A stretch of 64,000 nucleotides of DNA. Origin: Tenericutes bacterium MZ-XQ (GTDB lineage Bacteria > Bacillota_I > Bacilli_A > Acholeplasmatales > Acholeplasmataceae). Shown here one piece after another: positions 2,722-19,517 of the stretch. The stretch covers positions 1,432,858 through 1,496,857 of the forward strand of contig CP017950.1 in the NCBI GenBank assembly GCA_002838205.1. The letters run 5' to 3'. Below the pieces are notes generated by a model that did no database searches, was not told where the DNA came from, and saw nothing but the letters and a program-made list of their open reading frames with translations. How positions within the stretch are numbered: position 1 is the stretch's first letter; the number at the start of each line of letters is the position of its first letter. Position numbers and translations under genes: made by a program.

Positions 2722-2772
2722 GGTAAAAAATAAAAAAAACCTCATGTTGAGGATAATTTCCTGTTCATGAGG
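2722..2772 (-). terminator. Terminator at the end of the phage late operon
   Basis: On the minus strand CCTCATG (2772-2766) pairs with CATGAGG (2746-2740), with a loop of about 19 bases, followed by a run of eight T and more T-rich sequence. It lies just after the holin-like gene and before the recombinase operon, so the two transcription units are separate. Confidence 0.75.
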
Positions 2773-2779
2773 TCTGTGA

Positions 2780-4203: not shown

Positions 4204-4528
4204 CTTGAGATTCCTCAACGTGTTCAGGTATTGGATCAACCACTTCTAAATCATCCAATGAATCATCAAAACCAATCACATTTTGTTTTAACCAAAGATA
4301 TCCATGTTCAATCGGATTTGTATTCAAAAATGTTGGATAATCTAATTGAGGTATTTCGATGTCAATCTCCTCAATAGGATCACTTTGATTTATTCTTGCT
4401 TCTTTTGATAGATAAGTTGATACACAAAGTATGATCCTTTTATCTTTATAGTTAATGCTAAACGCTGATATTCTATGGTATGAAGCTTGAACGCCAAACT
4501 TCGTATCTAAAGCCTTAATAATTGCCAT
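4196..4528 (-). CDS. Phage late protein of unknown function
   Basis: A 110-residue protein beginning MAIIKALDTKFGVQASYHRISAF. It has an N-terminal beta-rich half and an acidic C-terminus (LEVVDPIPEHVEESQDE). Similar small proteins follow tail-fibre genes in Bacillus and Listeria siphophages, but I recognise no domain. It lies eight bases after the tail protein at 4536 and overlaps the nucleotidyltransferase start by 8 bases, so it belongs to the late operon. Confidence 0.6.
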   Translation of the reverse strand: MAIIKALDTKFGVQASYHRISAFSINYKDKRIILCVSTYLSKEARINQSDPIEEIDIEIPQLDYPTFLNTNPIEHGYLWLKQNVIGFDDSLDDLEVVDPIPEHVEESQDE

Positions 4529-4535
4529 ATTGTCC

Positions 4536-5216
4536 TCACTTTCTTTTCACACGGTAAATCGTAATTGATAAAGTATCTGGTGAACCGAGATTTAATCCAG
4601 TATTGATATAAAGTTGTCCAAGATTACCATTTACTGTATGCACAAAATCACATGACTTAATAGTTGAGTCACCTTGACCAGATAAAGTTGTTACACTTTT
4701 ACCGTATGCAACCCATTGCACGATATCGCTGAGTGATGACCTAAACATTGGGGATAATTCAAAAGAGATGATTTTCGATATACCACTTGTGATAGTTGGT
4801 CCTGTTTCATAACTATCTTCGATATATTGAACCGTTGTGTTTTTTGAACTTCTTGTTTGATAGACGCTACTTTCTGTACTTGCATAATAATTTAAGTAAC
4901 TACCCGTTAGAGTTGATGATGCGGCAGTTCGATAATAAAAATAAGTATCTGAGACATCTGTTGATGTACCATAAGTTGATGAAACAATATGGATTTTATA
5001 GATGAAATTTGAATCAAATGAATAATTCAGAGTATGTGTATACGCATAGCCTTCATAACTATAAACAAGTTCCATCTCTCCACCAATTTTGACAACCGAT
5101 GAAGGCGTTCTAGCGTATAAAGCATTCTCGTTATAATCAAATGCAAGTTCACCTAAATAGTTTAATTGTGCAGTTGTTGGTTTTGCAGTACCTCTTTTAA
5201 CTCTGATGATAGCCAT
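4536..5216 (-). CDS. Phage tail/receptor-binding protein, short
   Basis: A 226-residue protein. Its first 45 residues (IIRVKRGTAKPTTAQLNYLGELAFDYNENALYAR) match the small N-terminal module of many phage distal tail proteins ('IxxRRGT...GE..yd...lyvg'). The rest is rich in Ser, Thr, Tyr and beta-forming residues, as in receptor-binding or fibre tips. The neighbouring protein at 5216-6067 starts with the same kind of module. The two genes overlap by one base. It likely sits at the distal tail and may contact the host membrane surface; the ligand is unknown. Confidence 0.65.
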   Translation of the reverse strand: MAIIRVKRGTAKPTTAQLNYLGELAFDYNENALYARTPSSVVKIGGEMELVYSYEGYAYTHTLNYSFDSNFIYKIHIVSSTYGTSTDVSDTYFYYRTAASSTLTGSYLNYYASTESSVYQTRSSKNTTVQYIEDSYETGPTITSGISKIISFELSPMFRSSLSDIVQWVAYGKSVTTLSGQGDSTIKSCDFVHTVNGNLGQLYINTGLNLGSPDTLSITIYRVKRK

Positions 5217-6067
5217 TAATAAGTCCCACCATCTATGATTGAGGTCGGCATAAGGACCTTAGTTTTATCAATACCTAATTTATAGGAAACTCTAGTTGGT
5301 GTGTAATTTGAGTCGACAACCGCTGTATAAATGAGTCCATCGATAATTACTCCATTGGTATAATCAGCCTCTGTTCCAGCAACTGCAATTCCATCAGCAT
5401 CACTTATGTATACATTTTTAACGTTACTTAAGACTGTTCTTTGATCTTCAGTTAAATGTAAATTACTGGCGACATGCGTGTTATATGTTGATGCAGCTAC
5501 ACCACCTAATCCTGCAAGGGTAATTGATACCGCTCCGGTTGATCCATTAACACTTGTGACTGCATCTGTTGGTGTTAAGAGCTCTTGCCAGTTAGCTAGC
5601 GTTGAATAAGGTGATGCTTTAAGAATAAATGATTTGTTTAAGTCGGTTCTAACCGCAACGTCACCTTCTTGAGCTGTAGACAAACCAAGCATCGCAGTTT
5701 GACTTGCGACTACAAATGTATTTGTCATCGCAATCTTTGGTACAACACTGTCTGCTAGTTTGCCATTCGCATCGAGAACAGGTACATTCCCATTTCCGGT
5801 TCCAGTATTTTTGGTTGCTGCAGTTCCTAATCCAAGTGCAGTAATTTTTGTGTCAATTTGAGTGTTTACTTTAGCAACTCCAGGTATTTTTAAATAGTCT
5901 GATTCTGCTAGTGGAACTGATACACTAGCAACCTTATCTGCTTTTGCAATATATAGATGCTCACCACTAAAATCAACTAGTGGTTCACCAGCTTTTACTG
6001 ATCCTGTTGTCCCAACAAGAGGACCTGTTCCTGCTGTAGTTCTTCTTTTAATTTGAATTGTGGCCAT
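5216..6067 (-). CDS. Phage tail fibre-like protein
   Basis: A 283-residue protein. Residues 1-45 form the module IQIKRRTTAGTG...GEPLVDFSGEHLYIAK, shared with the downstream tail protein. Residues about 60-190 have low-complexity Gly/Ala/Thr/Val sequence typical of fibres (LGLGTAATKNTGTGNGNVP, SVNGSTGAVSITLAGLGGVAASTYNTHVASNLHLTEDQR). The LHLTEDQR stretch is common at fibre ends in Firmicute phages. It starts 11 bases after the previous gene and overlaps the next by one. It is probably a structural adhesin of the tail tip; the host receptor is not known. Confidence 0.7.
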   Translation of the reverse strand: MATIQIKRRTTAGTGPLVGTTGSVKAGEPLVDFSGEHLYIAKADKVASVSVPLAESDYLKIPGVAKVNTQIDTKITALGLGTAATKNTGTGNGNVPVLDANGKLADSVVPKIAMTNTFVVASQTAMLGLSTAQEGDVAVRTDLNKSFILKASPYSTLANWQELLTPTDAVTSVNGSTGAVSITLAGLGGVAASTYNTHVASNLHLTEDQRTVLSNVKNVYISDADGIAVAGTEADYTNGVIIDGLIYTAVVDSNYTPTRVSYKLGIDKTKVLMPTSIIDGGTY

Positions 6068-6078
6068 TTAAATTCCTC

Positions 6079-6852
6079 CTATTTTTTCATAAATAAACTT
6101 GTGATTTTATGCGTTGAGTTTGTTGTAGTTAATGTCACAACCCCATTCTCATATGAGATACTTAATGAGTAATCACTAGAAGCATATCGATATGAAACTG
6201 CTGTATTTGACCCAACGATAATGAATAGCAACTCACCTGGAAACGTAACAACTGTAGATCCATTGATCACAACATATAAGATTGCTTGGCTTAGTTCAGT
6301 TGAATTAGTTCCTGAGAAACGATAAGTTCCAGCTGAGACTAGCGTTAATTGTTTCCTGATTGGTAAGTAGTGGTTAAATATTTCATCATCTAATGTATCG
6401 ACTCGCCCTTTATCGTTACTAATCATCTTTCGTGAATAACTAGTTAAAGTCACCGATGATGTCGTTTTTGTATATGCACATAGTACCAACTCATAAAGAC
6501 CATCAGTAGTTAATAAATTGGTTGTTGTTAATGAAGGATACCCTCCAACCTGCTCTTTTAAGTATAAGCTTACGCTATCATCTGCTGAGTTTACACCCAA
6601 GACTACATAGCCACTTTTACTAGAGTCTGGTGTAACACCGATCATTGTTTGGTTTTCGATGTATACCAAACGTCCAAATATTGATGCATAACCATCACTA
6701 AATGTAATGGTGTTGTTTGCTAAAGTAAAACTACATTCGCTCTTTAAACCTTTTAAAATGCCAACATCGCTTGAAAAAAGAAAATGATACAAATCTGAAT
6801 CAATCTTAGCTGTAACATTGCCACCTTCAAAGGTGATTTTTTGCAGTCCCAT
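6079..6852 (-). CDS. Phage baseplate/tail-tip structural protein
   Basis: A 257-residue beta-rich protein. Its N-terminal part (FEGGNVTAKIDSDLYHFLFSSDVGILKG...FSDGYASIFGRLVYIENQ) resembles the minor structural/baseplate proteins in the tail-tip clusters of Lactobacillales and Bacillus phages. It carries no catalytic motif. It overlaps the upstream tail gene by one base. The position after the Tal-like protein and before fibre proteins supports a tail-tip role. Confidence 0.65.
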   Translation of the reverse strand: MGLQKITFEGGNVTAKIDSDLYHFLFSSDVGILKGLKSECSFTLANNTITFSDGYASIFGRLVYIENQTMIGVTPDSSKSGYVVLGVNSADDSVSLYLKEQVGGYPSLTTTNLLTTDGLYELVLCAYTKTTSSVTLTSYSRKMISNDKGRVDTLDDEIFNHYLPIRKQLTLVSAGTYRFSGTNSTELSQAILYVVINGSTVVTFPGELLFIIVGSNTAVSYRYASSDYSLSISYENGVVTLTTTNSTHKITSLFMKK

Positions 6853-7970
6853 CAGAACTCACCTCCATCAATATTTGAATTTGTAATTGTGATATTACTT
6901 GTCGAAGTACTGCCAGTATTTTTACTGAGCAGTTGTATTTTTTCTGTGAGTTTCACTCTATATTCTCCTAACGTTATCGTTGCATGTTTCATTGAATCTC
7001 TAAATTCAATTCCAGTTATAACTGAATCATAGGTTTTACCTTTATGAATAAACGATACATAATCACCTAAATTAATGTTTTTGAACGGTACAAAAATGTT
7101 ATTGTTCATATCAATCATAAAAGTAATGTTGTGATCTAGTTTTGACGTGACCATTTCACTTCTTGCTTTTGTTTCAAGAGATAAGTATTCGTTATCTGTA
7201 TAAAAATAGCTCTTTGACATCACACTTGTATATCTTAGATCAGACGAGCTATCTTCTGTGATATCTCCAGTTGTTAGTAGATAAAACGTTCTAACATTTA
7301 GATAGGTTTGGTTTTCACTTCTCGGATAGAAAATGACCTTATTAACGAGTTGACTTGTTGAATCATTGGTTTCTATCTGCATGATTGATGAAAAATCACT
7401 TTTGATGGTCGTCCCTTGATTGACACCAACAATTCTAAATTTAATACCCGTAATTCTTCCTCTAATGTAGATGACTTCTGTTTTAAAACTAATACCATAT
7501 CCCTTAGATACGAGTTCAAATATCTTTGACATATTAATGATGTTGTCTGTTTCAAAATTCAAACTTCCGGATGCACTTGTTTCTTTACTGATATTTAAAT
7601 ATGACAAATTTTGTCTTGTGTCTGAATTATTCTTGAAATAGCTCGAAATGATTTGATATAAATAATCCGCTAAATCACCACTAAAACTTGGTGCAATGAT
7701 ATCCAAATTAAAAATCTCCCTAAAATCGAGAGATTTAATACTCGTTGTATAATCATCTAATCGTTCAATACTTTCAAGAATACCTATATATGAGAATGTG
7801 TCATGTTTCAGGATGACAATATCCCCGATTTCACAGTTAATCTCTGTCTTGTTCACTTGAAACGTTGATCGCTTAATTAAAACCATGTCTAAAATGATCT
7901 CATATTGCTTACTGACATATGCATTATCTTTATACTGCAAAGTACTTCGATCTAAGAACAATAGTTTCAT
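6852..7970 (-). CDS. Phage tail-tip (Tal/gp18-like) protein
   Basis: A 372-residue protein in the position of the tail-associated (Tal) or tip hub protein, directly after the distal tail protein. The N-terminal 110 residues (ILKHDTFSYIGILESIERLDDYTTSIKSLDFREIFNLD) look like the hub beta-barrels that handle coordinates around the tail tube. It has no lysozyme or peptidase extension, which many Gram-positive phage Tal proteins carry; this fits a host without a wall. The C-terminus ends in a Ser/Thr/Asn-rich linker. Family assignment is by position and fold-like pattern. Confidence 0.65.
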   Translation of the reverse strand: MKLLFLDRSTLQYKDNAYVSKQYEIILDMVLIKRSTFQVNKTEINCEIGDIVILKHDTFSYIGILESIERLDDYTTSIKSLDFREIFNLDIIAPSFSGDLADYLYQIISSYFKNNSDTRQNLSYLNISKETSASGSLNFETDNIINMSKIFELVSKGYGISFKTEVIYIRGRITGIKFRIVGVNQGTTIKSDFSSIMQIETNDSTSQLVNKVIFYPRSENQTYLNVRTFYLLTTGDITEDSSSDLRYTSVMSKSYFYTDNEYLSLETKARSEMVTSKLDHNITFMIDMNNNIFVPFKNINLGDYVSFIHKGKTYDSVITGIEFRDSMKHATITLGEYRVKLTEKIQLLSKNTGSTSTSNITITNSNIDGGEF

Positions 7971-7971
7971 A

Positions 7972-8802
7972 TTAAATCCCTAAATATCCTTCAAGCACAG
8001 TTACTTTACATATCGTTTCAGTTGCAACGCCTGGTTTAAACTCAAACTCGTAATTACCATGACCCAGAAAGATAAAATTATCCGTTTCAAAATCTTGTAA
8101 TCCATATATGTCTGTAACAATACCTGATTCTTCTTTTGTCATTAACTGTTTACTTGGAATAGCGTTTACTACAATAGAAGCATTATCAGCAGTTATGTAT
8201 AACCTTAGAGTTGCCACAATCTCTCCGCTCTTCTTGACTATAACTTCAGGATCAATTACATCTCCAAGCATTTCTATGACGACAGGTGCATCATCCAATC
8301 CATCATTAATGATAAATGTTTTTCCCTCATATGAACTTGAATAGTGATATGGATAAATATAAGGATATACTTTGCCGGTTGCAGTTCCATTTGCTATGAT
8401 TTCATAAGTCTTTTCTCTTAGCCATAGTGATAACTTTTTGAAAACAATAGTACTTTGTAATGTGCCCGAAATGAGTTCTGCTTTCGTTAGGCTTGCTACA
8501 TCAACAAAACAATATGCCTTAAATGCATCTGTTTGATAATATAACTTTAGGTCGTCACCACTTTTACTAATGAAATCAACAAAGGCTTTATATCCTATAT
8601 AACCTTTTAAGAATACAAGTGTTGTCGTTATTTCTGAAAGTGGAATCTTATATTCTGACCTTGAAAAAAGGTTATGATATTCTAAATACTTGGAATCGAG
8701 AGCAAACCCTAATCCACTTACTTGAGAGATGTGTGTTTGATTTTTATAGTTAAAGTAGTAAGTGTCACCATATTTGTTTTCTATATAAAATTGCCTAATC
8801 AA
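7972..8802 (-). CDS. Phage distal tail protein (Dit-like)
   Basis: A 276-residue protein between the tape measure and tip hub genes, the usual place of Dit. Residues 1-110 (IRQFYIENKYGDTYYFN...LEYHNLFSRSEYKIPLSEITTTLVFLKGYIGYKAFVDFIS) match the N-terminal Dit pattern. The C-terminal half is a galectin-like beta domain (PVVIEMLGDVIDPEVIVKKSG, FIFLGHGNYEFEFKPG). Its start overlaps the tape-measure stop by four bases (ATGA). It likely forms the hexameric ring joining tail tube and baseplate. Confidence 0.75.
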   Translation of the reverse strand: MIRQFYIENKYGDTYYFNYKNQTHISQVSGLGFALDSKYLEYHNLFSRSEYKIPLSEITTTLVFLKGYIGYKAFVDFISKSGDDLKLYYQTDAFKAYCFVDVASLTKAELISGTLQSTIVFKKLSLWLREKTYEIIANGTATGKVYPYIYPYHYSSSYEGKTFIINDGLDDAPVVIEMLGDVIDPEVIVKKSGEIVATLRLYITADNASIVVNAIPSKQLMTKEESGIVTDIYGLQDFETDNFIFLGHGNYEFEFKPGVATETICKVTVLEGYLGI

Positions 8803-10808
8803 ATCACATTACCTCCTAAAGCTCTATTGATGGAGTCTATATCGAATGTCGAAGATGTCGTATTGATTGTGATATTGTTTGTGTTGCTTGTTGACGAATT
8901 CGAACTGGAGTTGTTGACTGTGCTTGATCCTTTTAGATTAAATGTGTCACTAAAAAATCCACCAATCTTACCGAAAAATCCACCAACTTTATCTGCAGCT
9001 TTTCCTGCAAAATCACTAACGCCATTCGTAACTTTAGAGGCAATGTTGCTGATACCATCGGTTACACTTCCGAATACATTCTTTATCTTTCCACCAAAGT
9101 CTCCTATTTTTGATGGCAAATCTCCAATCCATTCAAATATTTTCTGAATAAATTCGATGATCTTTTGCACAACTTTTAAAATTGGATCTAGAACTGTCTT
9201 TAAAACTTTGATTGCTGGAACTAATATGGCTTGTAAGACTTGACCTAAAGTAGTAATCAAAGGTGCCAGTGCTTCTAATATCTCAGCAAACATTGTCACT
9301 TGCATAATCAGTGGCATGAGTAAAACATCTAAGATAGGTACTAATAAATCAACAAGCATCACAACTAAATCAATAATCACATCAAGAATAGGCTCTAGTG
9401 CAGTAAGGAGTGCATCAACGATCATCATGATCGGAGGTAGCAACAACATAAATGTTTCCATGAGTCTATCAAGAAGTGCTCTAAACTCTTCACTTTGAAA
9501 TAAAGCAAGGGCTAAAATGGCGATGAGCGCGCCTATACCAAGGGTGGCAAAGTTTATACCTGCACCTGCAAAAAGCCCAGCAGCACCCACACCTTTAAGC
9601 GTCATAGCCACAATATTTAAGAGTGGTCCAACCTTACCAACAACCCCGAGTACTGGACCAATAGCCGCAACTAATCCTATAAGGGTTGCGATCATTTTCT
9701 TTGTATCTGAATCTAGACTATTCCATTTTGCAATCCAGTCTTTAACGACAGGTATCATTTCATCTCTGACTTTGATGATTAAGTTTTGAATCACAGGCAT
9801 AAGTGTACTAGCAATATCAACTGCAAGACTAGATAAGGCTTGTTTGGTTCTATCTAGGGCATCTGTAAACTCACCAGCTTGTGCAGCTTGTTCATTTGTC
9901 ACAATACCAAGTTCTCTTGCTTCTTGTCTTAAGTCATTTATAACTTCTGCTTCTTTAGATAAAACCGGAATAATATCAGCTGCGACTCTTTCACTTAATA
10001 AATCATTGGCCACACCTAGTCTTACTGCTTCATCTTCCACTTTACTTAAAGCATCTCTAATCAGTAAGAATGCTTCATCCGCATTTTTACCTTTTAAATC
10101 ATCAACAGTTAGTCCAATTAAGCCTAGACTATCCGCAAACTTATCACCATTGCCAGTCGCAATATCACCTAAGATACCATTAACCTTAACAAACGCTCGT
10201 TCCATTCTTTCTGTGGAAACCCCTAATATAGTTGCGGTATGATTCCACTCTTGAAATGCTTCAGCTGATAAACCAATCTTCTCTGCAGTATCACCAATCT
10301 CATCTGCAGTATAAGCAGTCTTAATCGAAAACGCTGTTAATGCAGAAACGGCTCCTAAGATAGGAACTGTTACAGATTTTGTCAGTGTAGAACCAAGTTT
10401 TCCAATCTTATCAAACTTGGCGTTACTTAATTCTTTAATTTTATTGTTTGTATTACTTAGTTGGCCATTCAGTTTTCCGAGTTCAGCTTCTGTATATTGG
10501 ACATTACGTTTGAGCTTATTAAACTCATCTTGACTCATGTCACCAATCTGAACTGCTTTTTTGGCTTTTTCAAGTTCTAGATTTTGTGTATCTAATCTTT
10601 TCTTTGTTGTTTGTAAAATACTATTTAATTTATCTTGTTTTGATTTCCATAAATCAAGATTAGAACTATCATATCTTAGATTAGCATTAATAGCTTTTAA
10701 ATCTTTATTTTGTTCTTTAAGATCCTTTTTAATATCTTTAAGCTCATTTTCTAAATCTCTACCATCAAGGCTAAGTTTGATATTGAGTCCTTTTACTGTT
10801 TCTGCGAT
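8799..10808 (-). CDS. Phage tail tape measure protein, apparent ATC start
   Basis: About 669 residues. The N-terminus (AETVKGLNIKLSLDGRDLENELKDIKKDL) is the classic tape-measure start and is followed by coiled coil to residue about 130. Then come Ala/Gly-rich hydrophobic segments (about 360-510), long helices and a Ser/Thr/Asn-rich end. The frame is open well upstream of the first ATG (10538). Upstream of 10808 the only sensible start is ATC at 10808-10806, placed seven bases after GGAGG; the in-frame codons between there and the TGA at 10846-10844 include no ATG, GTG or TTG. It sets tail length and is threaded through the tail tube. It lies directly behind the moron's terminator. Confidence 0.85.
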   Translation of the reverse strand: MAETVKGLNIKLSLDGRDLENELKDIKKDLKEQNKDLKAINANLRYDSSNLDLWKSKQDKLNSILQTTKKRLDTQNLELEKAKKAVQIGDMSQDEFNKLKRNVQYTEAELGKLNGQLSNTNNKIKELSNAKFDKIGKLGSTLTKSVTVPILGAVSALTAFSIKTAYTADEIGDTAEKIGLSAEAFQEWNHTATILGVSTERMERAFVKVNGILGDIATGNGDKFADSLGLIGLTVDDLKGKNADEAFLLIRDALSKVEDEAVRLGVANDLLSERVAADIIPVLSKEAEVINDLRQEARELGIVTNEQAAQAGEFTDALDRTKQALSSLAVDIASTLMPVIQNLIIKVRDEMIPVVKDWIAKWNSLDSDTKKMIATLIGLVAAIGPVLGVVGKVGPLLNIVAMTLKGVGAAGLFAGAGINFATLGIGALIAILALALFQSEEFRALLDRLMETFMLLLPPIMMIVDALLTALEPILDVIIDLVVMLVDLLVPILDVLLMPLIMQVTMFAEILEALAPLITTLGQVLQAILVPAIKVLKTVLDPILKVVQKIIEFIQKIFEWIGDLPSKIGDFGGKIKNVFGSVTDGISNIASKVTNGVSDFAGKAADKVGGFFGKIGGFFSDTFNLKGSSTVNNSSSNSSTSNTNNITINTTSSTFDIDSINRALGGNVI

Positions 10809-10811
10809 GTT

Positions 10812-10820
10812 TCCACCTCC
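10812..10820 (-). promoter_or_regulatory. Ribosome binding site that fixes the ATC start
   Basis: On the minus strand the sequence reads TGGAGGTGGAAACATC. GGAGG sits seven bases before ATC, which is ideal spacing. The next ATG in this frame is 270 bases further in, inside the conserved N-terminus. Confidence 0.65.
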
Positions 10821-10826
10821 AATGCA

Positions 10827-10854
10827 TAAAAAAACACATCAGATTTGACGTGTT
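10827..10854 (-). terminator. Terminator of the metal moron, upstream of the tape measure gene
   Basis: On the minus strand AACACGTCA pairs with TGATGTGTT around an AATC loop (nine pairs, one G-U), followed by seven T. It lies between the Fe-S protein gene and the tape-measure ribosome binding site, inside what should be one phage late transcript. Confidence 0.75.
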
Positions 10855-10869
10855 ATTATAAAGAACATT

Positions 10870-11286
10870 TTAATTATTATAATCATTTATTAAATCGTTT
10901 ATTTGTCTACTACAACATTTACCAGTAGGACTTTTGTGAACACAATCACTGTTTTTCATCGCGTTTGTATTTTTTACAACCTTTCCTACTGTATCACACT
11001 CTTTATTCACTATCGCATCAACAATTTCAGCTTTTTCTACTTTACTACAATAGCAAATATATTTTGGATCAGCATCTTCCTTGTACCAAATCGGAACTTT
11101 AACATCAGTTTGCATTATCATATTTTCTTCACCAGAAAAATAAGCAACATCACATGTTGGGTTTAAGCATAAATAATAATCTTGATTAACCTCAATGGAT
11201 TCTATGCTAGTTAAGCTTTTAACTGTAACATTACTTACCAGTTCGCCATTCACATTACATTTTGGACATGGTTTTGTTTTTTGCAT
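10870..11286 (-). CDS. CopZ-like (2Fe-2S)/zinc-binding protein of the phage moron
   Basis: A 138-residue Cys-rich protein. The N-terminus has CPKCN and a later Cys (CLNPTCD), a zinc-type pattern. The C-terminal 70 residues (YICYCSKVEKAEIVDAIV...CVHKSPTGKCC) follow the BFD-like [2Fe-2S] pattern CxC...C...CC, as in the N-terminal part of Archaeoglobus CopZ and related copper/iron chaperone proteins. The ATG at 11286 is preferred over GTG at 11295, because AGGTGA lies just upstream of it. It is the third gene of the fetA-fetB cassette, 12 bases after fetB. It probably delivers or senses Cu or Fe ions. The role is inference from family. Confidence 0.75.
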   Translation of the reverse strand: MQKTKPCPKCNVNGELVSNVTVKSLTSIESIEVNQDYYLCLNPTCDVAYFSGEENMIMQTDVKVPIWYKEDADPKYICYCSKVEKAEIVDAIVNKECDTVGKVVKNTNAMKNSDCVHKSPTGKCCSRQINDLINDYNN

Positions 11287-11298
11287 AATAGTCACCTA

Positions 11299-12087
11299 TT
11301 ATCCATCAATTAATTGTGAATCCTGATTAAAAAATGTTTTATATCCAAAAATTAAAAATATATAAGTGCTTAATGATACACCACCTAAGATTCCAAGCAT
11401 AACCCCAATTTGATACATGATAGCAGTCGTTGGTACAACACCAGATAAAATCTGTCCAGTCATCATACCAGGCAAGAAAATGATCCCCATCCCCAGCATA
11501 TTATTAAGGGTCGGCATGATAGCTGAATCGAATGCTTGATTAATGATATCATGGCTTGCTTCTTTTGGTGTTGCACCTAATACTAACGACTCAATCACTT
11601 CATCTTTTTGATCCGTAAATTTATTGAGTAACGTATGAATACCAAGTGTGATTCCTGTCATGCTATTACCAATAATCATCCCAGTTATTGGAATAAGGTA
11701 TTGAGGGTTATAATACGGCTCAATTTGTACAACAATAAACACAAAATAAAATAACGCAATGAGTCCACCAGTGGGTAAACTAAGCATAATAACTTTTTTT
11801 AAAGATGGGGTTAGATCATCCTTAAACTTTCTAAACACTGTTAAAACACTGAACCCTACCATTAATAAAACAACACCAAATGTCACAAAGGGCGATGGGT
11901 TATCAAAGATTGCTGTTAAAAGAAGGCCCATTACAACAAGCTGCACCGTCATTCTAAGGGTTGCAAGTATCAACGTTTTTTCTCTTTTAATGCCACGCCT
12001 ATTTAAAATCCATAAAATAAAAACAACAAAGACATAGCCAAATAAAACTTGCCAAACACTAAGCTGAATGATTGTATCATTATTCAA
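11299..12087 (-). CDS. fetB: FetB-type metal ABC exporter permease
   Basis: About 262 residues with some seven predicted membrane helices. Diagnostic stretches of the FetB/YbbM (UPF0014) family are visible: LILATLRMTVQLVVMGLLL, PITGMIIGNSMTGITLG, LGATPKEA and MMTGQILSG. In E. coli FetAB is known as an iron exporter that protects against peroxide stress. The gene overlaps fetA; no ATG is present near the start. TTG at 12087, nine bases after AAGGGG, is chosen over TTG at 12096, which would touch that ribosome binding site. It sits in a prophage late operon, an unusual place. Metal specificity is not certain. Confidence 0.85.
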   Translation of the reverse strand: MNNDTIIQLSVWQVLFGYVFVVFILWILNRRGIKREKTLILATLRMTVQLVVMGLLLTAIFDNPSPFVTFGVVLLMVGFSVLTVFRKFKDDLTPSLKKVIMLSLPTGGLIALFYFVFIVVQIEPYYNPQYLIPITGMIIGNSMTGITLGIHTLLNKFTDQKDEVIESLVLGATPKEASHDIINQAFDSAIMPTLNNMLGMGIIFLPGMMTGQILSGVVPTTAIMYQIGVMLGILGGVSLSTYIFLIFGYKTFFNQDSQLIDG

Positions 12088-12718
12088 GCGACTCAACCCC
12101 TTTCACTTCACCCTTGGCAATTTCAATCAAAATATCACCATATTTTTTAGCAACCGCTTTAGAGTGTGTAATCATCACCAAACTCAACTGGTTTTTTTTA
12201 ACAAAATCAACAACCATTGAAATCACTAAATCTTCAGTTTCATCATCTAATGCACTTGATGGTTCATCCATTATATAAACCTCACCTTTAAGCAACATCA
12301 CTCTTGCAAGCGCAAGACGTTGCGCTTCTCCACCTGATAGTTTGCTTGCATCATGGCCTAAAGATTGGGTTAATTTCACTTGTTTAAGCATCTTTTCCAT
12401 CGTTTCATCAGTAACATTCAAGCGATGAAAAGAAGCTGCTTTCATTAAATTATCCTTAATTGTTTTTTTATAGATATAAGGTTTTTGTGATAAGTAAATA
12501 ACGCTTTTTCTTAATGCAACCGCATCATAATCTTTTAACTTTTTATCTTTATACACAATCTCACCTTCATCAGGTGAAATCATTTTATTTAGCAGTTTTA
12601 AAAGGGTAGACTTACCCGCGCCACTCTCCCCAACAATACATGTGATTTTCCCTTGTTTAATGGTTAAATCATCGATGTTTAAAATGTCTTTATATTTTAC
12701 CTCTTTTAGTCTAAACAT
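12080..12718 (-). CDS. fetA: FetA-type metal ABC exporter ATPase
   Basis: A 212-residue ABC ATPase. It shows Walker A GESGAGKST (about residues 33-41), Q-loop YLSQKPY, signature LSGGEAQRLALARV, and Walker B VYIMDEPSSALDD followed by the switch His (MITHS). It pairs with the FetB permease just downstream, with which it overlaps. The ATG at 12718 is preferred to GTG at 12727, since GAGGTGA precedes it. The leader and start GGTGACTATTATG are repeated in front of the third gene of the cassette. A promoter with an extended -10 lies immediately upstream. By family it energises metal export, probably iron. Confidence 0.88.
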   Translation of the reverse strand: MFRLKEVKYKDILNIDDLTIKQGKITCIVGESGAGKSTLLKLLNKMISPDEGEIVYKDKKLKDYDAVALRKSVIYLSQKPYIYKKTIKDNLMKAASFHRLNVTDETMEKMLKQVKLTQSLGHDASKLSGGEAQRLALARVMLLKGEVYIMDEPSSALDDETEDLVISMVVDFVKKNQLSLVMITHSKAVAKKYGDILIEIAKGEVKGVESLE

Positions 12719-12738
12719 AATAGTCACCTCTTACTGCT

Positions 12739-12747
12739 ATTATAACA
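12739..12747 (-). promoter_or_regulatory. Extended -10 promoter of the metal moron
   Basis: The minus strand reads TGTTATAAT, an extended -10 element (TGnTATAAT), about 20 bases before the fetA start. The -35 region is weak, which is tolerated with an extended -10. It overlaps the last codons of the phage tail-chaperone frame. Confidence 0.65.
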
Positions 12748-12749
12748 TA

Positions 12750-12995
12750 CTATATGAGAAAGTTATCGATATCATGTTGTCTTGCTCTTTTACTGGATTT
12801 AGGTCCACTAATCACATTTTTCTCTAGTTCTACGATTGAAAAGTATGTTTCTAGATCAAATGACTTGGTATCTTCAATCGATAATCCTAAGTGCGCAAGA
12901 TTGAAGATGATGTTAGCGGTAATATCTTTTTCTTCTGCACTACTTTGATTTGCTGGGTTGGGGTGTGCTTTTCTGAAATGTCCCGAGCATTTCAC
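12750..12995 (-). CDS. Tail assembly chaperone C-terminal extension (T frame), reached by frameshift
   Basis: This frame overlaps the end of the preceding chaperone gene and has no good ribosome binding site of its own. It is best read as the T part of a G-GT pair, as in most siphophages. Relative to the upstream frame it is in +1. A CCC-C run at 12963-12960 allows a +1 slip that changes 'ST-P-QPSKSK stop' to 'ST-P-NPANQSSAEEK...' and yields a fusion of about 178 residues. The T part (FNLAHLGLSIEDTKSFDLETYFSIVELE) is helical. Such fusions load the tape measure during tail assembly. Confidence 0.65.
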   Translation of the reverse strand: MKCSGHFRKAHPNPANQSSAEEKDITANIIFNLAHLGLSIEDTKSFDLETYFSIVELEKNVISGPKSSKRARQHDIDNFLI

Positions 12996-13287
12996 CTATC
13001 GTATTCGTTAGATTTTGTAACTCATCCTGGTTACTTAATAAACCAAAATCAAGTGACATTAAAAAGTCATTATATGATTGCTTGCTAAAAGGTCGATGAA
13101 GCACATAGATGATTCTAAAGATCGTATCAATCACTGTCGATAAATCTTCTTCTTTTTTACCCGTCTTTTCTAGCTTTTTAATATCACTAAATAGTTCAGT
13201 TGAAAATACATTACGGTAATCAATAATTGTAAATAGTGATGAATGCAGGCGATAGTCTTTATCACCTAGATTAAGTGTTTTTTCCAT
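12940..13287 (-). CDS. Phage tail assembly chaperone (G-like)
   Basis: A 115-residue, mostly helical protein between the major tail protein and tape measure, the usual place of the G chaperone. It starts MEKTLNLGDKDYRLHSSLFTIIDYRNVF and ends in a flexible Thr/Pro/Ser/Lys tail at which the frameshift occurs. It normally binds the tape measure protein in excess over the fused GT form. The start lies 10 bases after the tail tube gene. Assignment is by position, size, fold type and the overlapping second frame. Confidence 0.75.
   Translation of the reverse strand: MEKTLNLGDKDYRLHSSLFTIIDYRNVFSTELFSDIKKLEKTGKKEEDLSTVIDTIFRIIYVLHRPFSKQSYNDFLMSLDFGLLSNQDELQNLTNTIGEMLGTFQKSTPQPSKSK
12958..12966 (-). 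other. Candidate +1 programmed frameshift site
   Basis: The minus strand in the chaperone frame reads ACA CCC CAA. A tRNA on CCC can slip one base forward on CCCC, moving ribosomes into the T frame, which is open to 12750. The zero frame stops 18 bases later (TAG at 12942-12940). Overlapping Pro codons are the known +1 site in Listeria phage PSA; use here is inference. Confidence 0.5.
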
Positions 13288-13297
13288 GTGCTACTCC

Positions 13298-13864
13298 TTA
13301 TAAAAATGTTGGCAATGTCGGTGCAGTGGTTAGAAATGTTGCGTAGTTTGTATCTTGTGCGCCTGCGATTGCCCTTAAGATCAGATTGTTTCCTGCTTCA
13401 ATTGGTCTTGCTGTAATATTAAGTTCAATTGAGTTTGCTTCAATAGAATCTGATTTTGTTTTACTCGAGTCTCCTGAAGGCGATGCTGTACATAAGAAAT
13501 ACCATATACGTCTTGCTTTCATGTCACCTTGTATTTCATAGCCTAATGCGAATGTTTTTGTCTCAGCATTCACAATTTCTATTAAGTTCCCATTGGTATC
13601 TTCTAAGAACCCAAAGATATCCTTTTTAAATGCTTCATCAATTTCTGTGAACTTTAATGTCACGTTAGATCCTGAATTAGATACGAGTGTCTTAATGACT
13701 TTATCATCTGCATAAACTTGTGCACTACTACCAATGACCTCAGTACTAATTTCTTGTGCGCCTTCTAATCGTTTAGGTACACCAAAAGTCCAACTACCAT
13801 CTTCTGTTTGTGTTGCTAGTGCATAGTGCACATTGGTTAAACCAAAAGTTACTTTATTACTCAT
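13298..13864 (-). CDS. Phage major tail (tube) protein, phi13-type
   Basis: A 188-residue protein. Features typical of the phi13/TP901-like major tail protein are present: VTFGLTNVHYALAT near the start, GAQEISTEVIGSSAQVYADDKV in the first third, and the GYEIQGDMKARRIWYFLCTASP core. It polymerises into the tail tube. It is preceded by the completion protein gene (2-base gap) and followed by the chaperone gene. No Ig-like C-terminal domain is seen. Confidence 0.85.
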   Translation of the reverse strand: MSNKVTFGLTNVHYALATQTEDGSWTFGVPKRLEGAQEISTEVIGSSAQVYADDKVIKTLVSNSGSNVTLKFTEIDEAFKKDIFGFLEDTNGNLIEIVNAETKTFALGYEIQGDMKARRIWYFLCTASPSGDSSKTKSDSIEANSIELNITARPIEAGNNLILRAIAGAQDTNYATFLTTAPTLPTFL

Positions 13865-13866
13865 TG

Positions 13867-14202
13867 TTATAAAACCTCCAATTTGATTTCATATACACGG
13901 TTTATTGAACCGTCTTCATTTTGATATTCAGTGATCATTTGAAATTCATAACCACCATAATATAAAGATACCTCGAGCTTTTCTTCTAACTCGAGGTTTT
14001 TATGTTTTGTTATTAGATTAAGTTGAATCGTTAGTATTCGCATGGTTACTTTATCGTCTGCATACATCGATCCCTTATTTGATACTTCTTGATAAATGAT
14101 ATACTCATCACTTTCATCTATACTATCTTTTTTACCATATGAAACTTGTCCTGGTAAAACAGAACTTAATGTCGTGTAAAGTGATTCTAAAATTTCTTTC
14201 AT
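13867..14202 (-). CDS. Phage tail completion/terminator protein
   Basis: A 111-residue protein between the HK97 gp10-type gene and the major tail gene, the position of tail terminator proteins. Its pattern (LYTTLSSVLPGQVSYGKKD...EYIIYQEVSNKGSMYADDKVTMRILTIQLNLITK...LEEKLE) matches the DUF3168/DUF806-like group, in which a ring caps the tail tube and docks to the head. Neighbour spacing is one and two bases. Confidence 0.7.
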   Translation of the reverse strand: MKEILESLYTTLSSVLPGQVSYGKKDSIDESDEYIIYQEVSNKGSMYADDKVTMRILTIQLNLITKHKNLELEEKLEVSLYYGGYEFQMITEYQNEDGSINRVYEIKLEVL

Positions 14203-14203
14203 A

Positions 14204-14593
14204 TCAGTTTCCTTTAGAAATGATTTCTTTGATGTCTTCTAACATCTTTGGTGTAAACATATCGTAAGCCGGCCTCATAAAAGGTCTTGGCCCGACATAT
14301 TTTCCACTTCGGTGTGTATAGCCAAACTCAAGTAAATGTGTGAGTCCACCTTTGCCTTCAGAGTAAATAGATATAGATGTGTTCAATCCACTTCCATTTG
14401 AAGTTGCGACAAATGAATCCGCAAATGCATTTTTATAGCCACTTCTTGGTGCATTACGTTTCATGTAAATTAATATATCTTTAGCAGTATCATTTAATCT
14501 TTTTTCAAGCTTTGGGATTATGCCTTCTACATAATTTTCTATTTCATCTTCAATCGCTTGTCCTAAATCATTCAGTGTAATCAATGATATCAC
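14204..14593 (-). CDS. HK97 gp10-family head-tail protein
   Basis: A 129-residue protein. The pattern 'KLEKRLNDTAKDILIYMKRNAPRSGYKN' followed by 'LTHLLEFGYTHRSGKYVGPRPFMRPAYD' is the hallmark of HK97 gp10 family proteins, whose conserved end is E-G...G...R-P-F-x-x-P-A. These proteins take part in tail completion or in joining tail to connector. The start lies within the end of the closure gene (26-base overlap). Confidence 0.88.
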   Translation of the reverse strand: MISLITLNDLGQAIEDEIENYVEGIIPKLEKRLNDTAKDILIYMKRNAPRSGYKNAFADSFVATSNGSGLNTSISIYSEGKGGLTHLLEFGYTHRSGKYVGPRPFMRPAYDMFTPKMLEDIKEIISKGN

Positions 14594-14906
14594 CTAACTT
14601 GATGGATGTTCTTTTTAAATAAAGTTCAATAAATTGTCCTGCTTGATAGGTTCTTTCTATCTTATAGATAACACTACCTATATCCACATACTTAGAACTA
14701 TCATAGACGATTCCTTGTACTTTAACCGCGATATCAATTCTGATATCTGAACGTTTACTTTCATAGTACTCTCTTGAAGTAATCGAAAAATTAATACCAA
14801 TCACTTCTTTTTTCGACTTAAATTGATAACTCATTACACCCATGGTGTTAGGAACCATCTCCAAGGTTAGTAAGTGCATTCTTATATTGGGGGAATTTGG
14901 ATACAT
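14568..14906 (-). CDS. Phage head closure protein (SPP1 gp16-like)
   Basis: A 112-residue small beta-barrel protein. The residues SKKEVIGINFSITSREYYESKRSDIRIDIAVKVQGIVYDSSKYVDIGSVIYKIERTYQ resemble the head-closure family in which D...Y-x-I-x-R-x-Y/W is conserved. It probably forms the gate ring under the connector that keeps DNA in the capsid. It follows the connector gene by five bases and overlaps the gp10-like gene. Confidence 0.75.
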   Translation of the reverse strand: MYPNSPNIRMHLLTLEMVPNTMGVMSYQFKSKKEVIGINFSITSREYYESKRSDIRIDIAVKVQGIVYDSSKYVDIGSVIYKIERTYQAGQFIELYLKRTSIKLGDIIDYTE

Positions 14907-14911
14907 TTTTT

Positions 14912-15193
14912 TTAGCTCCCTTTTGTTAATGCGAGTTGACCTACCAGCATATCAAATGACTTGGGTAGTTCTTTTGCGCTTCCATCGTTTTTAAAGCCAT
15001 AAAATGTCTTCACATAAATAATAATGACTGTACTAACCATTGGATTTGATTCATCATTTATATAAGAAGGATCAACCCCACAACTTTCTAAGTAATGTTT
15101 ACAGCTATTGATGTGCGTGTTTAACTCATCATCTGCATAAGTCTCTACTTGGGGGATGAGTAAAGCCTTTTTTACAATATCTAAAATTGCCAT
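14912..15193 (-). CDS. Phage head-tail connector protein (gp6/gp15-like)
   Basis: A 93-residue helical protein directly after the major capsid gene. It has the pattern of HK97 gp6-type adaptors: LIPQVETYADDELNTHINSCKHYLESCGV, then VIIIYVKTFYGFKND and the terminal helix LPKSFDMLVGQLALTK. It should form the ring that joins portal and closure protein. Confidence 0.8.
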   Translation of the reverse strand: MAILDIVKKALLIPQVETYADDELNTHINSCKHYLESCGVDPSYINDESNPMVSTVIIIYVKTFYGFKNDGSAKELPKSFDMLVGQLALTKGS

Positions 15194-15218
15194 GAAATCG
15201 ATCCTTTCTTAACTAAAA

Positions 15219-16358
15219 TTATCCTGCAGGTGCAGCTTTCTTCTTAATGCGTAAGAAGCCGTTATAACCAACAACATTACCACCAGTAAAGACTGAAGCT
15301 TTATAACTGATAATACCGTCTTTAAATTTGTAATCTGTTGATTTACCAATTTCTACTGGTGAGAACACTGGCACTTCATAGTTCTTAAGCGCACCATAAG
15401 CGATACCATATTCACCAGCAACTGTGTTACTATCAGAGATTGCTTTACAATGTGAGTTAATGATATAAGGAATACCATCAATCGTTTTATTGACATAATC
15501 AATCGAGTGAACCTTACGACCTTCTTGTGTCTTTAGTCCAGCAAACGCACGTAAATCATTCTTATTCAAGATAAGAACTGCACCACCTTCGACTTCTTCA
15601 TCGCCTCCATAAGCAAAGACAATGTCATCAAGGGTTGAATCTGTGATTGCTTCAACTTCAAGTGCTGTCTTATCCGCAAGTGCCACTGCAGCTTCACTGA
15701 AAATACCAGTAAATGTATTCGTTGTTCCTGCACCTCGTAAGATTTGTTCACTAATTTTCTTTTTAAGTGAAATATTGATGTTTCTTAAGACTTCTGCTTG
15801 GTAAGGAATTGAAGGCAGTTTTTCTAACTCTTCTGTAATCTCTGTATAAGCAGTGATTTTAACTTTTGAAATGGTTAAGTAACCAAATGCAGGTTCTGTC
15901 TCTGAATAAGCTCCGCCTTCTGCAGTCGTTCCAGCGATGCCATTTGATTTAACAAATGATTTCTTATAAGTCTCACCGCCATTTAAATTAATCACATTGA
16001 CACGATCAACTAGACTTGACACTTGAGCAAATGGAACTGGCGCAAGATTCGTTGACGTGTGATCAGGAAGTAAGATCTCAGAACTTGATACTTGAATGAC
16101 TCTACTTTCTTTTAAGCTTTGTCCTCTTGTTTCTAGTTTTTCTTTATCGACCATTTGACGATTATCGACTTGAATGGGTTTAAATTCTGTTTTAGAAGCA
16201 ATCGCCATCTTCTTATCAATCGATGCTCTTTCTTCTTGAAGGGTTGTTGTTTCTGTGTCTAGTGCTTCTAGTTTTTCTAGATCAGCTTCTGTATCTACTA
16301 GACTTCTAATTTCTTTTAATCGTGATTCAATTTCTTTTCTTCTTAATTCTAAATTCAT
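15219..16358 (-). CDS. HK97-family major capsid protein
   Basis: A 379-residue protein. Residues 1-60 form a charged coiled coil (RRKEIESRLKEIRSLVDTEADLEKLEALD), the delta or scaffolding domain removed by the protease. The mature fold starts around residue 95-110 and contains KKSFVKSNGIAGTTAEGGAYSETEPAFGYLTISKVKITAYTEITEELEKLPS, the E-loop and spine helix region of HK97 capsids. The gene follows the protease gene by 15 bases. The frame appears intact. Confidence 0.93.
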   Translation of the reverse strand: MNLELRRKEIESRLKEIRSLVDTEADLEKLEALDTETTTLQEERASIDKKMAIASKTEFKPIQVDNRQMVDKEKLETRGQSLKESRVIQVSSSEILLPDHTSTNLAPVPFAQVSSLVDRVNVINLNGGETYKKSFVKSNGIAGTTAEGGAYSETEPAFGYLTISKVKITAYTEITEELEKLPSIPYQAEVLRNINISLKKKISEQILRGAGTTNTFTGIFSEAAVALADKTALEVEAITDSTLDDIVFAYGGDEEVEGGAVLILNKNDLRAFAGLKTQEGRKVHSIDYVNKTIDGIPYIINSHCKAISDSNTVAGEYGIAYGALKNYEVPVFSPVEIGKSTDYKFKDGIISYKASVFTGGNVVGYNGFLRIKKKAAPAG

Positions 16359-16373
16359 GATTTTTTTCTCTCC

Positions 16374-16964
16374 TTAGATTTTTGATTTAATTTTGATACG
16401 TTTTTTGATTAAATCTGATTTTTCTTTTTGCTCTTCTAACTCCATAGTCTTTAGTTCCAATTCCATGGACTCTAAAGAACGAGCATATATCGAGGTTGCA
16501 TCATATGCAGGTGTATCCACAACCGACACATCATACAATCTTTCTATCCTTGTAATGGTTCTTTTGGGAATGTCACCTTCACGGTTCCATACCTGTTCAT
16601 CAACGGTAAAAGCAAAACTCATTTTATCTAATAGGCCACTTCTAACCATTTTATAGATATCCTGGTTATGACTTGTATCTAAGAGTTCAGCTCTTACCTT
16701 GAGGCCAATATGATCAACAGTAAGTTCAAGTGATTTATTCTTGGTTCTCGCAATAATTAAAAAGGAGTCCATATGATTGTATTTCATAGGAACATCCTTC
16801 ATTTTAGTTTCCCCTAAAGCAGTAGGTGATATTTCTTCAATGAACCCATAGGTCTCATCACCGATTAAAGTTTCTTGATTAAAGACTAATGCATAGCCTT
16901 CTAAAATCATCTTACCTTCATCTTCATGAAGACTGACTTCTGCGAGTCTAGTTTCTTTTATCAT
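16374..16964 (-). CDS. HK97-family prohead protease
   Basis: A 196-residue serine protease of the prohead type. The core motifs are EGYALVFNQETLIGD near residue 22, the His-containing MKYNHMDSFLIIARTKN, and MSFAFTVDEQVWNREGD...TRIERLYDVSVVDTPAYDATSIYAR, which holds the catalytic Ser region and the conserved 'DVSxVxxPAY' end. A charged coil forms the C-terminus. It cleaves the capsid delta domain during maturation. It overlaps the small gene upstream by 17 bases. Confidence 0.92.
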   Translation of the reverse strand: MIKETRLAEVSLHEDEGKMILEGYALVFNQETLIGDETYGFIEEISPTALGETKMKDVPMKYNHMDSFLIIARTKNKSLELTVDHIGLKVRAELLDTSHNQDIYKMVRSGLLDKMSFAFTVDEQVWNREGDIPKRTITRIERLYDVSVVDTPAYDATSIYARSLESMELELKTMELEEQKEKSDLIKKRIKIKSKI

Positions 16965-17166
16965 TGGATCTTACCTCTACTTTTTTGGCTTGTTTAGGTT
17001 TTACTTCATGTTCATAGTCAAACTCAAGCTCTGAGTCTTTATATGAGAATGTTTCTAGTTTTTCTTTCTTACAAAAATCAGTGATCGTTTTAGTTTTTTC
17101 TTTTTGCGTTTCTAAAATACTTTTTAAAGCTTCATTTGATATTTTTCCATTAACTGTTATTTTCAT
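16948..17166 (-). CDS. Small phage protein between portal and protease
   Basis: A 72-residue charged protein (MKITVNGKISNEALKSILETQKEKTKTITDF...). I recognise no domain. The ATG at 17166 is chosen because GGAGG lies nine bases upstream; an alternative longer frame from 17220 lacks such a signal. It overlaps both the end of the portal gene and the start of the protease gene by 17 bases, which supports translation as part of the head module. Confidence 0.6.
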   Translation of the reverse strand: MKITVNGKISNEALKSILETQKEKTKTITDFCKKEKLETFSYKDSELEFDYEHEVKPKQAKKVEVRSNDKRN

Positions 17167-18210
17167 CTTTAGGTTCCTCCGTTCCAACTTGATATTGATT
17201 TGCTTTATCTGCATCGACAAAGTTTAATGATTGAAGTCGTTTGTTTCCACCTTCGATAGGCTCTAATCCTAATAGTGCTCTTGATTCATTGAGTGACATA
17301 ATTCCTAGACTCATCAATTTTTCAATGGCTGTAACTTTGGTGTTCCATGAAGCGTACTGCAATCTTTCACTATAAAAGATAATTTCTTCACCACGTTCCA
17401 ATTGATTGTTGGTAAGTAAGCCTATAGAAAAAGCCTCGCTAAGTTGAATAGCTAAAGGCTCGATCGTTGACTCATAAAATGAATTGAATTCTTCTTCTGT
17501 ATATTTACTTGTAAAGATTGGTACTGATACACCAAAGTAATCGAGTATTTTTGATTGCAAGAATTCTAGAGTATCTTTATCAATCAATTTAGGATCTACA
17601 TCTAAGGGGATGTATTCACTCTTTAAATCAATCGGAATGATAGAACTTCCTTTTGTGTTGACTGAATCAGAAAGTGCACTATCAAATAGTTCTCTTTGTT
17701 TTTTCTTATCGGTTTCTGATAACATACCGTTCATCTTAACAATACCTTTAATCTGCATGGATGACTTAATCGCATTATCAATCCCTTGTAATAAACTATC
17801 ATTAATTGAGATGGTTTTTAGGATTGCTTCATGATCACCACTTGATCCATTTCCACCAAAGATATCATTTTGTCCGTAGTGTTTTCTTAAATGAATGATA
17901 TTCTCATACGGTAATGTATAGGTGTCACCATTTTCAAATAAGAATTTTATAAAGTATTGATCACTCTGATCTATTACTATTTCCACCGTAATGGGTTTAA
18001 GAGGATAAAGACCTATAAGGTGTCCTGTATATTTATCAAACCTAGGATAAATGAATGTATTATCATTAAGTAGTAATGTCGTAATAACCTTATAGATGAA
18101 ATCATATGGCGTCATGATATCGTTGGGTTTATGCTTCAAAAGAAAAGACAGCCTTCCGCTTTTCTCGGATACTGTCTTATCGTTTTCTATTTTAATATAT
18201 CTTGGTTTTA
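17150..18210 (-). pseudogene. Phage portal protein, 5' end removed by IS insertion
   Basis: About 353 residues of an HK97-type portal remain. The visible part begins IKPRYIKIENDKTVSEKSGRLSFLLKHKPNDIMTPYDF, corresponding to the second conserved block of portals ('Hpl..LL...PN..mt.ydf'), and runs to the normal C-terminus. Other hallmarks are IHLRKHYGQNDIFGG and the clip/stem region around residue 200 (ILDYFGVSVPIFTSKYTEEEFN). The reading frame stays open right up to the IS3 left end at 18211, and the first 50-90 residues are missing. An in-frame TTG at 18139 could be taken for a start but lies inside the conserved block. The rest of the gene is not seen on the other side of the IS. Confidence 0.88.
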
Positions 18211-18241
18211 TGCACTGCTATGATTTTCTAGGACACATAGG
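18211..18241 (+). repeat. Left terminal inverted repeat of the IS3 element
   Basis: It reads TGCACTGCTATGA, then a variable stretch, then GGACACATAGG. The matching copy at the right end differs at several central positions. Confidence 0.75.
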
Positions 18242-18312: not shown

Positions 18313-19200
18313 TTAAGTAAATCCATTAATCATTCTATATTCAACTGGTGTTATGTAATCAAGACGATATGCTAATCGATGATTATTAAAGTAATGAACA
18401 TATAATTCTATAGCTGTATGTATATCTGAGAAATCATGAAGTTTCATGTATTGTTTTAAGTCCCCTTTAATCCAACCTATTAGTGATTCAATTACTGGAT
18501 TATCTGTAGGTGTTCCTGCACGTGACATAGAACGAGTAATCGGATAGTCTTTATGTGCTTTTTCGAACTTAACTGAAGAATAAACTCTTCCTTGATCACT
18601 ATGTAAGATAGTATGTTCTTCACCGTATCCTCGTTCCTCTTTGATACGCAAGAATTTATACAAACTTCTTAAGTGATTCATCACGCCATTTCCGTGATGA
18701 TAGTTTGCTAAATCATATCCAACTATCTCATTGTTGAATACATCAATATGCAAGTTTAAATCGTATTTCTTTCCATCATGTTTAAGCATTGTTGTGTCAC
18801 TACACACTTTCTCAAATGGTCTTGTAGTACTCCAATCACCATTGATTATATTAGGAAACTTATCCGATACTCCTTTTGGTCTTCTAAATGCTTTTCTACG
18901 CGCTCTAGAGTAAATTCCCATTTCTCTAAATGCTTGATATGCTGAATAGAATGATACAATCCATCCAGTTTCATTAAGTATCATTTTCCTAATTGCTCTA
19001 TATCCGCATTCTGGATGGATTGAATGATAATTCTTAACTAACATTTTTAGTGTTTCCTTTGTTTCTTGTCGCTCTGTTTTATTCTCTTTTCTTCTTAGCC
19101 ATCTATAATATCCGCTTCTTGTGATTCCCATGTATTCACATAGATCTTTTATGTAATACTTGATTCTAAATTTATGAACTAAAGTATACTCATAATTCAA
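18313..19200 (-). CDS. IS3-family transposase OrfB (DDE catalytic part)
   Basis: A 295-residue protein with an rve integrase-core domain. The catalytic triad is visible: Asp in VCSDTTML, Asp in LHSDQGRVY and Glu in NPVIESLIGWIK, with the last two about 35 residues apart, as in IS3 elements. The N-terminal 90 residues hold the HTH_21 motif (YRAIRKMILNETGWIVS). The gene starts on TTG at 19200, within the stop region of orfA and one frame back, so the active enzyme is probably the OrfAB fusion made by frameshifting. Confidence 0.92.
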   Translation of the reverse strand: MNYEYTLVHKFRIKYYIKDLCEYMGITRSGYYRWLRRKENKTERQETKETLKMLVKNYHSIHPECGYRAIRKMILNETGWIVSFYSAYQAFREMGIYSRARRKAFRRPKGVSDKFPNIINGDWSTTRPFEKVCSDTTMLKHDGKKYDLNLHIDVFNNEIVGYDLANYHHGNGVMNHLRSLYKFLRIKEERGYGEEHTILHSDQGRVYSSVKFEKAHKDYPITRSMSRAGTPTDNPVIESLIGWIKGDLKQYMKLHDFSDIHTAIELYVHYFNNHRLAYRLDYITPVEYRMINGFT

Positions 19201-19517
19201 GATCTGTTTTTTTTTACATATTTTGCTTCTTCACTTGAATACCCTCTTTTTAGTCTTTCAATTTCAACTTTAAGCATTAAGATTTCATGCTTTAGTGATT
19301 CTACTGATTCGGGTTCTTGATTGGATGGTATTTGATCTTTTATTTTACGTTTACTTACTAGTCCACTAATACCTTCTGCTTGATACTTACGTACCCACTC
19401 TCTTTGTGTTTTCCTAGCTACACTATATGTTCGTTCTATTTGATGTTTCGATATATTTTCATTCAATATCATCTTTACTATTTTAAGTTTAAAGTCTAAA
19501 CTGTACTGATTTACCAC
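19197..19517 (-). CDS. IS3-family transposase OrfA (HTH part)
   Basis: A 106-residue DNA-binding protein. Residues 4-55 hold the HTH_Tnp_1/IS150-type helix-turn-helix (LDFKLKIVKMILNENISKHQIERTYSVARKTQREWVRKYQ). Residues 70-92 form a leucine zipper-like coil (VESLKHEILMLKVEIERLKR) used for multimerisation. The GTG start at 19517 follows AAGGAG eight bases upstream. It overlaps orfB by four bases. Confidence 0.88.
   Translation of the reverse strand: MVNQYSLDFKLKIVKMILNENISKHQIERTYSVARKTQREWVRKYQAEGISGLVSKRKIKDQIPSNQEPESVESLKHEILMLKVEIERLKRGYSSEEAKYVKKNRS
19207..19215 (-). other. -1 frameshift slippery run of the IS3 element
   Basis: In the orfA frame the minus strand reads GTA AAA AAA AAC AGA. 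The nine A followed by C give an A-AAA-AAC type slippery heptamer. A -1 slip bypasses the orfA stop and continues in the orfB frame. Confidence 0.7.

Follow-up and report, generated by a model that had tools for sequence, protein, structure and literature searches.

Escherichia coli FetAB (YbbL/YbbM) is an iron exporter whose ABC ATPase and UPF0014 permease genes adjoin, and its overexpression is reportedly the topic of a published paper. The pair described here has the same arrangement, but it falls below the curated cut-offs for FetAB, is phage-borne, and is joined to a gene for a CopZ-N-like protein. This third protein shares the Zn-site and [2Fe-2S] cysteines with the N-terminal domain of Archaeoglobus fulgidus CopZ (PDB 2hu9), whereas it lacks the C-terminal HMA copper domain. 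For the locus as a whole, the closest described systems are morons, the definition of which comes from lambdoid and Mu-like phages (Juhala 2000; Hendrix 2000; as quoted in PMC4378225 and PMC5567305). As these quotations present them, morons are autonomous promoter/terminator units located between genes that adjoin in related phages; they are dispensable and may help the lysogen, and the present locus seems to share these features. Unlike the morons of the quoted definition, it occupies one fixed place family-wide, at the junction between the T frame of the tail chaperone and the tape-measure gene (T|TMP), has a terminator stem common to unrelated cargo, and includes metal transporters among its cargo. 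The late region of SPP1 is also comparable, since its late siphophage gene order is broken by morons bracketed by transcription signals (PMC6316719). Nevertheless, the chaperone|TMP junction of SPP1 itself (17.5*|18) is empty, with the stop at 12,255 and the start at 12,267 in the table of the same paper.

The window, that is, the whole stretch of 64,000 nucleotides analysed, corresponds to positions 1432858-1496857 of the 2.157-Mb single-contig genome of Tenericutes bacterium MZ-XQ. The host is a wall-less bacterium related to Acholeplasma. MZ-XQ is a sister isolate of MO-XQ, and its source was 2-km-deep subseafloor coal (PMC6381156). On the minus strand of the window, the genes follow the order G, T frame, fetA, fetB, CopZ-N-like gene, TMP, and Dit, with head and major tail genes before G (Table 1). 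The neighbours of the cassette are phage tail proteins according to Pfam and PHROGs, namely the major tail protein, the chaperone-like phrog_709, TMP, and Dit. This gene order and the Pfam matches bear out the original prediction that fetA, fetB, and a Cys-rich Zn/[2Fe-2S] gene lie between the T frame and TMP, and the three genes are not standard tail genes. Their GC content (33.5, 34.3, and 30.3% for fetA, fetB, and CopZ-N, respectively, vs 36.1% for TMP) differs little from that of the phage. The promoter and the terminator anticipated for the cassette are likewise present as predicted signals, the extended -10 directly after the T stop codon and the hairpin just before TMP, with 7 bases between the end of the terminator and the TMP Shine-Dalgarno sequence.

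Table 1. Location of the cassette, its surroundings, and related features in other loci. Coordinates refer to the window unless a locus is given.
Feature	Position	Strand	Remarks
G tail chaperone	12940..13287	-	ORF list, PHROGs, relatives
T frame of tail chaperone (left slot border)	12750..12995	-	T stop codon 12752-12750
Extended -10 TGT-TATAAT	12739..12747	-	TG 12747-12746, TATAAT 12744-12739; immediately 3' of T stop
Direct repeat copy 1, GGTGACTATTATG	12716..12728	-	RBS and fetA start
fetA-like ABC ATPase, 212 aa	12080..12718	-	ATG 12718; Walker A GESGAGKST, signature LSGGEAQR
fetB-like permease, UPF0014, 265 aa	11299..12096	-	start codon uncertain
Direct repeat copy 2, GGTGACTATTATG	11284..11296	-	RBS and CopZ-N-like gene start
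CopZ-N-like Zn/[2Fe-2S] protein, 138 aa	10870..11286	-	ATG 11286; no C-terminal HMA domain
Terminator CACGTC-AAATCT-GATGTG and T run	10828..10852	-	CACGTC 10852-10847, GATGTG 10840-10835, T run 10834-10828
TMP tape-measure gene (right slot border)	8799..10808	-	start codon AUC 10808-10806 behind SD 10820-10814
Truncated prophage	882..18212	-	serine recombinase, holin-like, tail, head, portal without N-terminus
IS3-family transposase genes at prophage break	18313..19517	-	directly after portal
AUC TMP starts	window 10808-10806; L040-L055, L058, L063	window on -	near clade
UGA peptides	L060:4224-4322, L068:4794-4904, L072:1720-1809, L095:2640-2750, L096:1234-1326, L120:5790-5900	+	
UGA peptide	L022:7884-7795	-	same T|TMP slot
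CorA leaders	L132:326-594, L111:3335-3604, L069:3697-3968, L066:2128-2403	+	conserved between cassettes

IMG/VR (best 80 of 214) and one genome per species (37 loci) were scanned with a profile of the TMP N-terminus, which yielded 113 loci with a measurable T|TMP junction. In 51 of them, the junction is empty and consists of 11-21 bp with nothing but a Shine-Dalgarno site, so the cassette separates genes that directly adjoin in related phages; the other 62 are filled with inserts of 237-2523 bp, which amount to 50 distinct inserts, as some records are repeats of one phage. Since so many junctions are empty and others hold different cargo, the idea that all tail operons of this type contain the cassette was ruled out. 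The expectation that siphophages normally have no gene at this place holds in general, but not in the phage group of the window, where most close relatives are filled: inserts occur in 61/95 loci with a TMP N-terminus of at least about 71% identity and in 1/18 of the more distant loci, and filling is a trait of the nearer clade.

The inserts are enriched in transcription signals at both ends. An extended -10 occurs within the first 70 nt of 36 of the 50 distinct inserts (shuffled mean 7.8, maximum 15), and a hairpin followed by a T run within the last 90 nt of 46 (shuffled mean 0.09, maximum 2). Moreover, the stem CACATC/GATGTG before TMP recurs after unrelated cargo and is near-identical in most other cargo cassettes. 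Empty and filled junctions, varied cargo, and the enrichment of both signals together indicate that T|TMP is a moron slot, with FetAB/CopZ as one of its cargoes, and the relatives, with empty junctions or other cargo within the same promoter/terminator frame, uphold the moron reading of the original prediction. It is therefore very likely that the cassette is a moron occupying a dedicated slot of Acholeplasmatales siphophages with rapidly changing content, where cargo is swapped by recombination and where FetAB and CopZ-N would serve metal handling.

In the mechanism proposed, most cargo brings an extended -10 right after T and a terminator just before the TMP ribosome site. Because both signals bracket most cargo, it could be transcribed from a silent prophage without the tail genes; the anatomy is directly visible, and the host sigma factor would presumably perform this transcription while the tail genes stay off. 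A terminator inside the late operon would, in turn, need read-through or antitermination during lytic growth. Exchange of cargo takes place through recombination within the conserved tail genes on either side, as the CopZ cassette shows by its tract of identity between diverged flanks.

At least 24 kinds of cargo are found at T|TMP. CorA, present in four relatives (L066, L069, L111, and L132), is a second kind of metal transporter in the slot. Other cargo includes RelB-like proteins (L045, L080, L103, and L128), GHKL-type ATPases (L101, L115, L131, and L134), a TenpIN-like toxin (L054), and a ParB-like protein (L088), as well as DUF1232, DUF2188, DUF6946, zinc ribbons, lipoprotein-like proteins, and unknowns. 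Ten proteins from other cargo of the slot had no convincing match in PADLOC. The CorA cassettes share a conserved leader, roughly 190 nt long, in which one or two small ORFs occur; the second overlaps the corA start. Neither these leaders nor the short inserts match Rfam. The TenpIN-like type III toxin is encoded at L054:4189-4932 on the plus strand, and the approximately 300 bp before it may hold antitoxin RNA repeats.

Regarding the function of the window cassette, the products of fetA and fetB pass the Pfam cut-offs for ABC_tran (PF00005, 111.8 bits) and UPF0014 (PF03649, 262 bits over 242/242 positions), respectively, so that a UPF0014 permease gene adjoins an ABC ATPase gene, as in FetAB. 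The third product matches zf_CopZ (PF18423) with 57.7 bits vs a cut-off of 28.4; its Zn-site and [2Fe-2S] cysteines align with those of 2hu9, and the protein ends after the [2Fe-2S] part with no Pfam match to the HMA copper-binding domain. Its chromosomal relatives adjoin genes for a metal P-type ATPase or ars genes. The NCBIfam cut-offs are missed by a wide margin by FetA (NF007601, 136 vs 292 bits) and FetB (TIGR00245, 141.8 vs 410 bits), and they are not reached by CopZ-N (NF045877, 145.5 vs 190; NF047645, 74.2 vs 100), whose best NCBIfam model, below its cut-off, is that of the Csac_0668 (seleno)protein family. The shortfalls of FetA and FetB, along with the toxin-antitoxin-like nature of other slot cargo, such as the TenpIN-like L054 and the RelB-like L045, leave some room for a FetAB that moves another metal or a small solute, or that has an antiphage role of the kind known for many morons. 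This seems possible but less likely, since the full-length UPF0014 match and the presence of a Zn/[2Fe-2S] CopZ-N protein as partner speak for metal handling. Hence, the protein families suggest metal efflux, assisted by a protein that binds metal, as the most likely role, and iron, by analogy with the E. coli namesake, is the best guess for the substrate. Together, FetA and FetB would most likely work as an ABC exporter for Fe(II) or a comparable metal, the Zn/[2Fe-2S] protein could act as its metal-binding or chaperone partner, and the cassette may make the lysogen more tolerant of metal or oxidative stress; the metal or peroxide resistance of lysogens put forward in the original prediction is plausible on these grounds.

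The history of the cassette can be partly read from three viral contigs that carry the CopZ cassette without fetAB. Two of them, both metagenomic (L040 and L042), share with the window an identical stretch of about 1 kb, made up of the last 29 bp before the T stop, all 509 bp of the insert, and 477 bp of TMP, whereas the flanks of this stretch are about 92% and 86% identical, which marks it as a recent recombination tract. The third (L041) has a 97% version of the cassette. In the window, fetAB is exactly the stretch between the two 13-bp copies of GGTGACTATTATG. Because three relatives lack fetAB, its gain is the simpler reading and seems more likely in the window lineage than its loss, although a loss between the repeats is possible. 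The nearest kin of FetB are chromosomal FetB proteins of another family of the same class (72% for G400, family f16), and in a tree the window FetB does not belong to the well-supported clade that the FetB proteins of the host family itself form; FetB would thus have been captured, since it groups with the chromosomal FetB of another family. FetA reaches only 51% in the same comparison. In the window lineage, a fetAB pair from that other family would have been joined to the CopZ cassette between the 13-bp RBS repeats.

Phage-borne FetAB is otherwise rare, as had been supposed, within the collections searched. Among viral contigs, FetB was found only in the window prophage, and the CopZ-N protein only there and in the three CopZ-only contigs; PHROGs has no family for FetB, and 50,697 phage records gave only four FetB matches, with 31-34% identity, in unannotated records. 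Thus, FetAB/CopZ cargo is new for phages in these collections, the moron principle being already known.

The window prophage, also listed in IMG/VR as IMGVR_UViG_2775506791_000002, is a defective, truncated remnant. Compared with related portals, its portal is about 50 residues short at the N-terminus; L024 has a terminase and early genes upstream of the portal that are missing here, and past the IS3 break there are a tRNA-Leu and housekeeping genes. Because of this truncation, the cassette now acts as a chromosomal gene set and not as cargo of a mobile phage. In the sister isolate MO-XQ, a tail operon of the same type is located in a 93-kb plasmid (CP017949; L127/L023), possibly a phage-plasmid.

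The state of the prophage, together with the fact that it holds the sole UPF0014 copy and the only CopZ-N gene of the genome, would also be compatible with an ordinary chromosomal metal-resistance operon that landed in a dead prophage after the loss of mobility and never was phage cargo. This origin is quite improbable, since the CopZ part occurs with the same promoter, terminator, and T/TMP flanks in metagenomic phage contigs and the site is a cargo slot across the whole family; the fetAB step alone could postdate the decay. It is highly improbable that the phage itself is what benefits from the genes, be it in tail assembly, in the metal content of the virion, or in late-stage functions, because, even though the cassette lies on the same strand within the tail operon and is readable from upstream late transcripts, the empty junctions of 51 relatives make its genes dispensable to the phage, and it has its own -10 and terminator at a place that also receives cargo of unrelated function.

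AUC is the start codon of TMP in 17/17 near relatives and in two further ones, behind a good Shine-Dalgarno sequence, and in the 17 there is no other in-frame start; the loss of the TMP start by decay (ATC for ATG) was ruled out, as all 17, including large phage contigs, have ATC. AUC is also found at the start of the short peptide, described below, in L095 and L120.

Seven distinct short cassettes (237-277 bp) contain no standard ORF, but they have a frame of 29-36 codons after a good Shine-Dalgarno sequence that is open if UGA is read, with one to three in-frame UGA each and UAG at the end in all cases. The predicted peptides (29-36 aa) are amphipathic and of membrane type, with UGA at conserved columns, and all convincing matches to their DNA pattern in viral contigs lie inside the T|TMP slot. 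At Trp-like positions there are 14 UGA and one UGG, with one column being UGA in 7/7 distinct cassettes; since another varies among UGA, UGG, UGU, and UGC, the residue is likely Trp, Cys or Sec being possible. Pairwise codon changes seem protein-like (dN/dS 0.4-0.7), which, for such short sequences, is weak evidence alone. In the structural genes of these loci, UGG occurs 93 times and internal UGA never, and 26/74 of the genes stop at UGA (several loci representing one phage). A pattern search found tRNA-Trp(CCA) in 6/7 host genomes, neither CCA nor UCA in the draft G423, and no tRNA-Trp(UCA) in any of the seven, the TTCA matches not being tRNAs by ARAGORN; a host tRNA-Trp(UCA) as the cause of the UGA codons was thus ruled out for the genomes searched. 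It is unlikely, though conceivable, that the shortest cargo of this family-wide port represents a moron type of its own, namely UGA-containing peptides made whole only on UGA read-through. If so, such a peptide could be, for example, a tripwire set off by the suppression of UGA termination through stress or an invading phage.

What was seen as one odd insertion becomes, with the dedicated moron slot, a defined cargo site that is readable across many phages through the same borders, the same terminator stem, and interchangeable cargo. Moron exchange thereby becomes measurable in phages of wall-less bacteria, including which cargo is exchanged, how often, and by which recombination. Moreover, reading the T-to-TMP interval is a simple route to new defence and metal-tolerance genes. 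FetAB-type, CopZ-N, and CorA genes emerge as cargo that phages carry in environmental Mollicutes, whose survival may be limited by metals.
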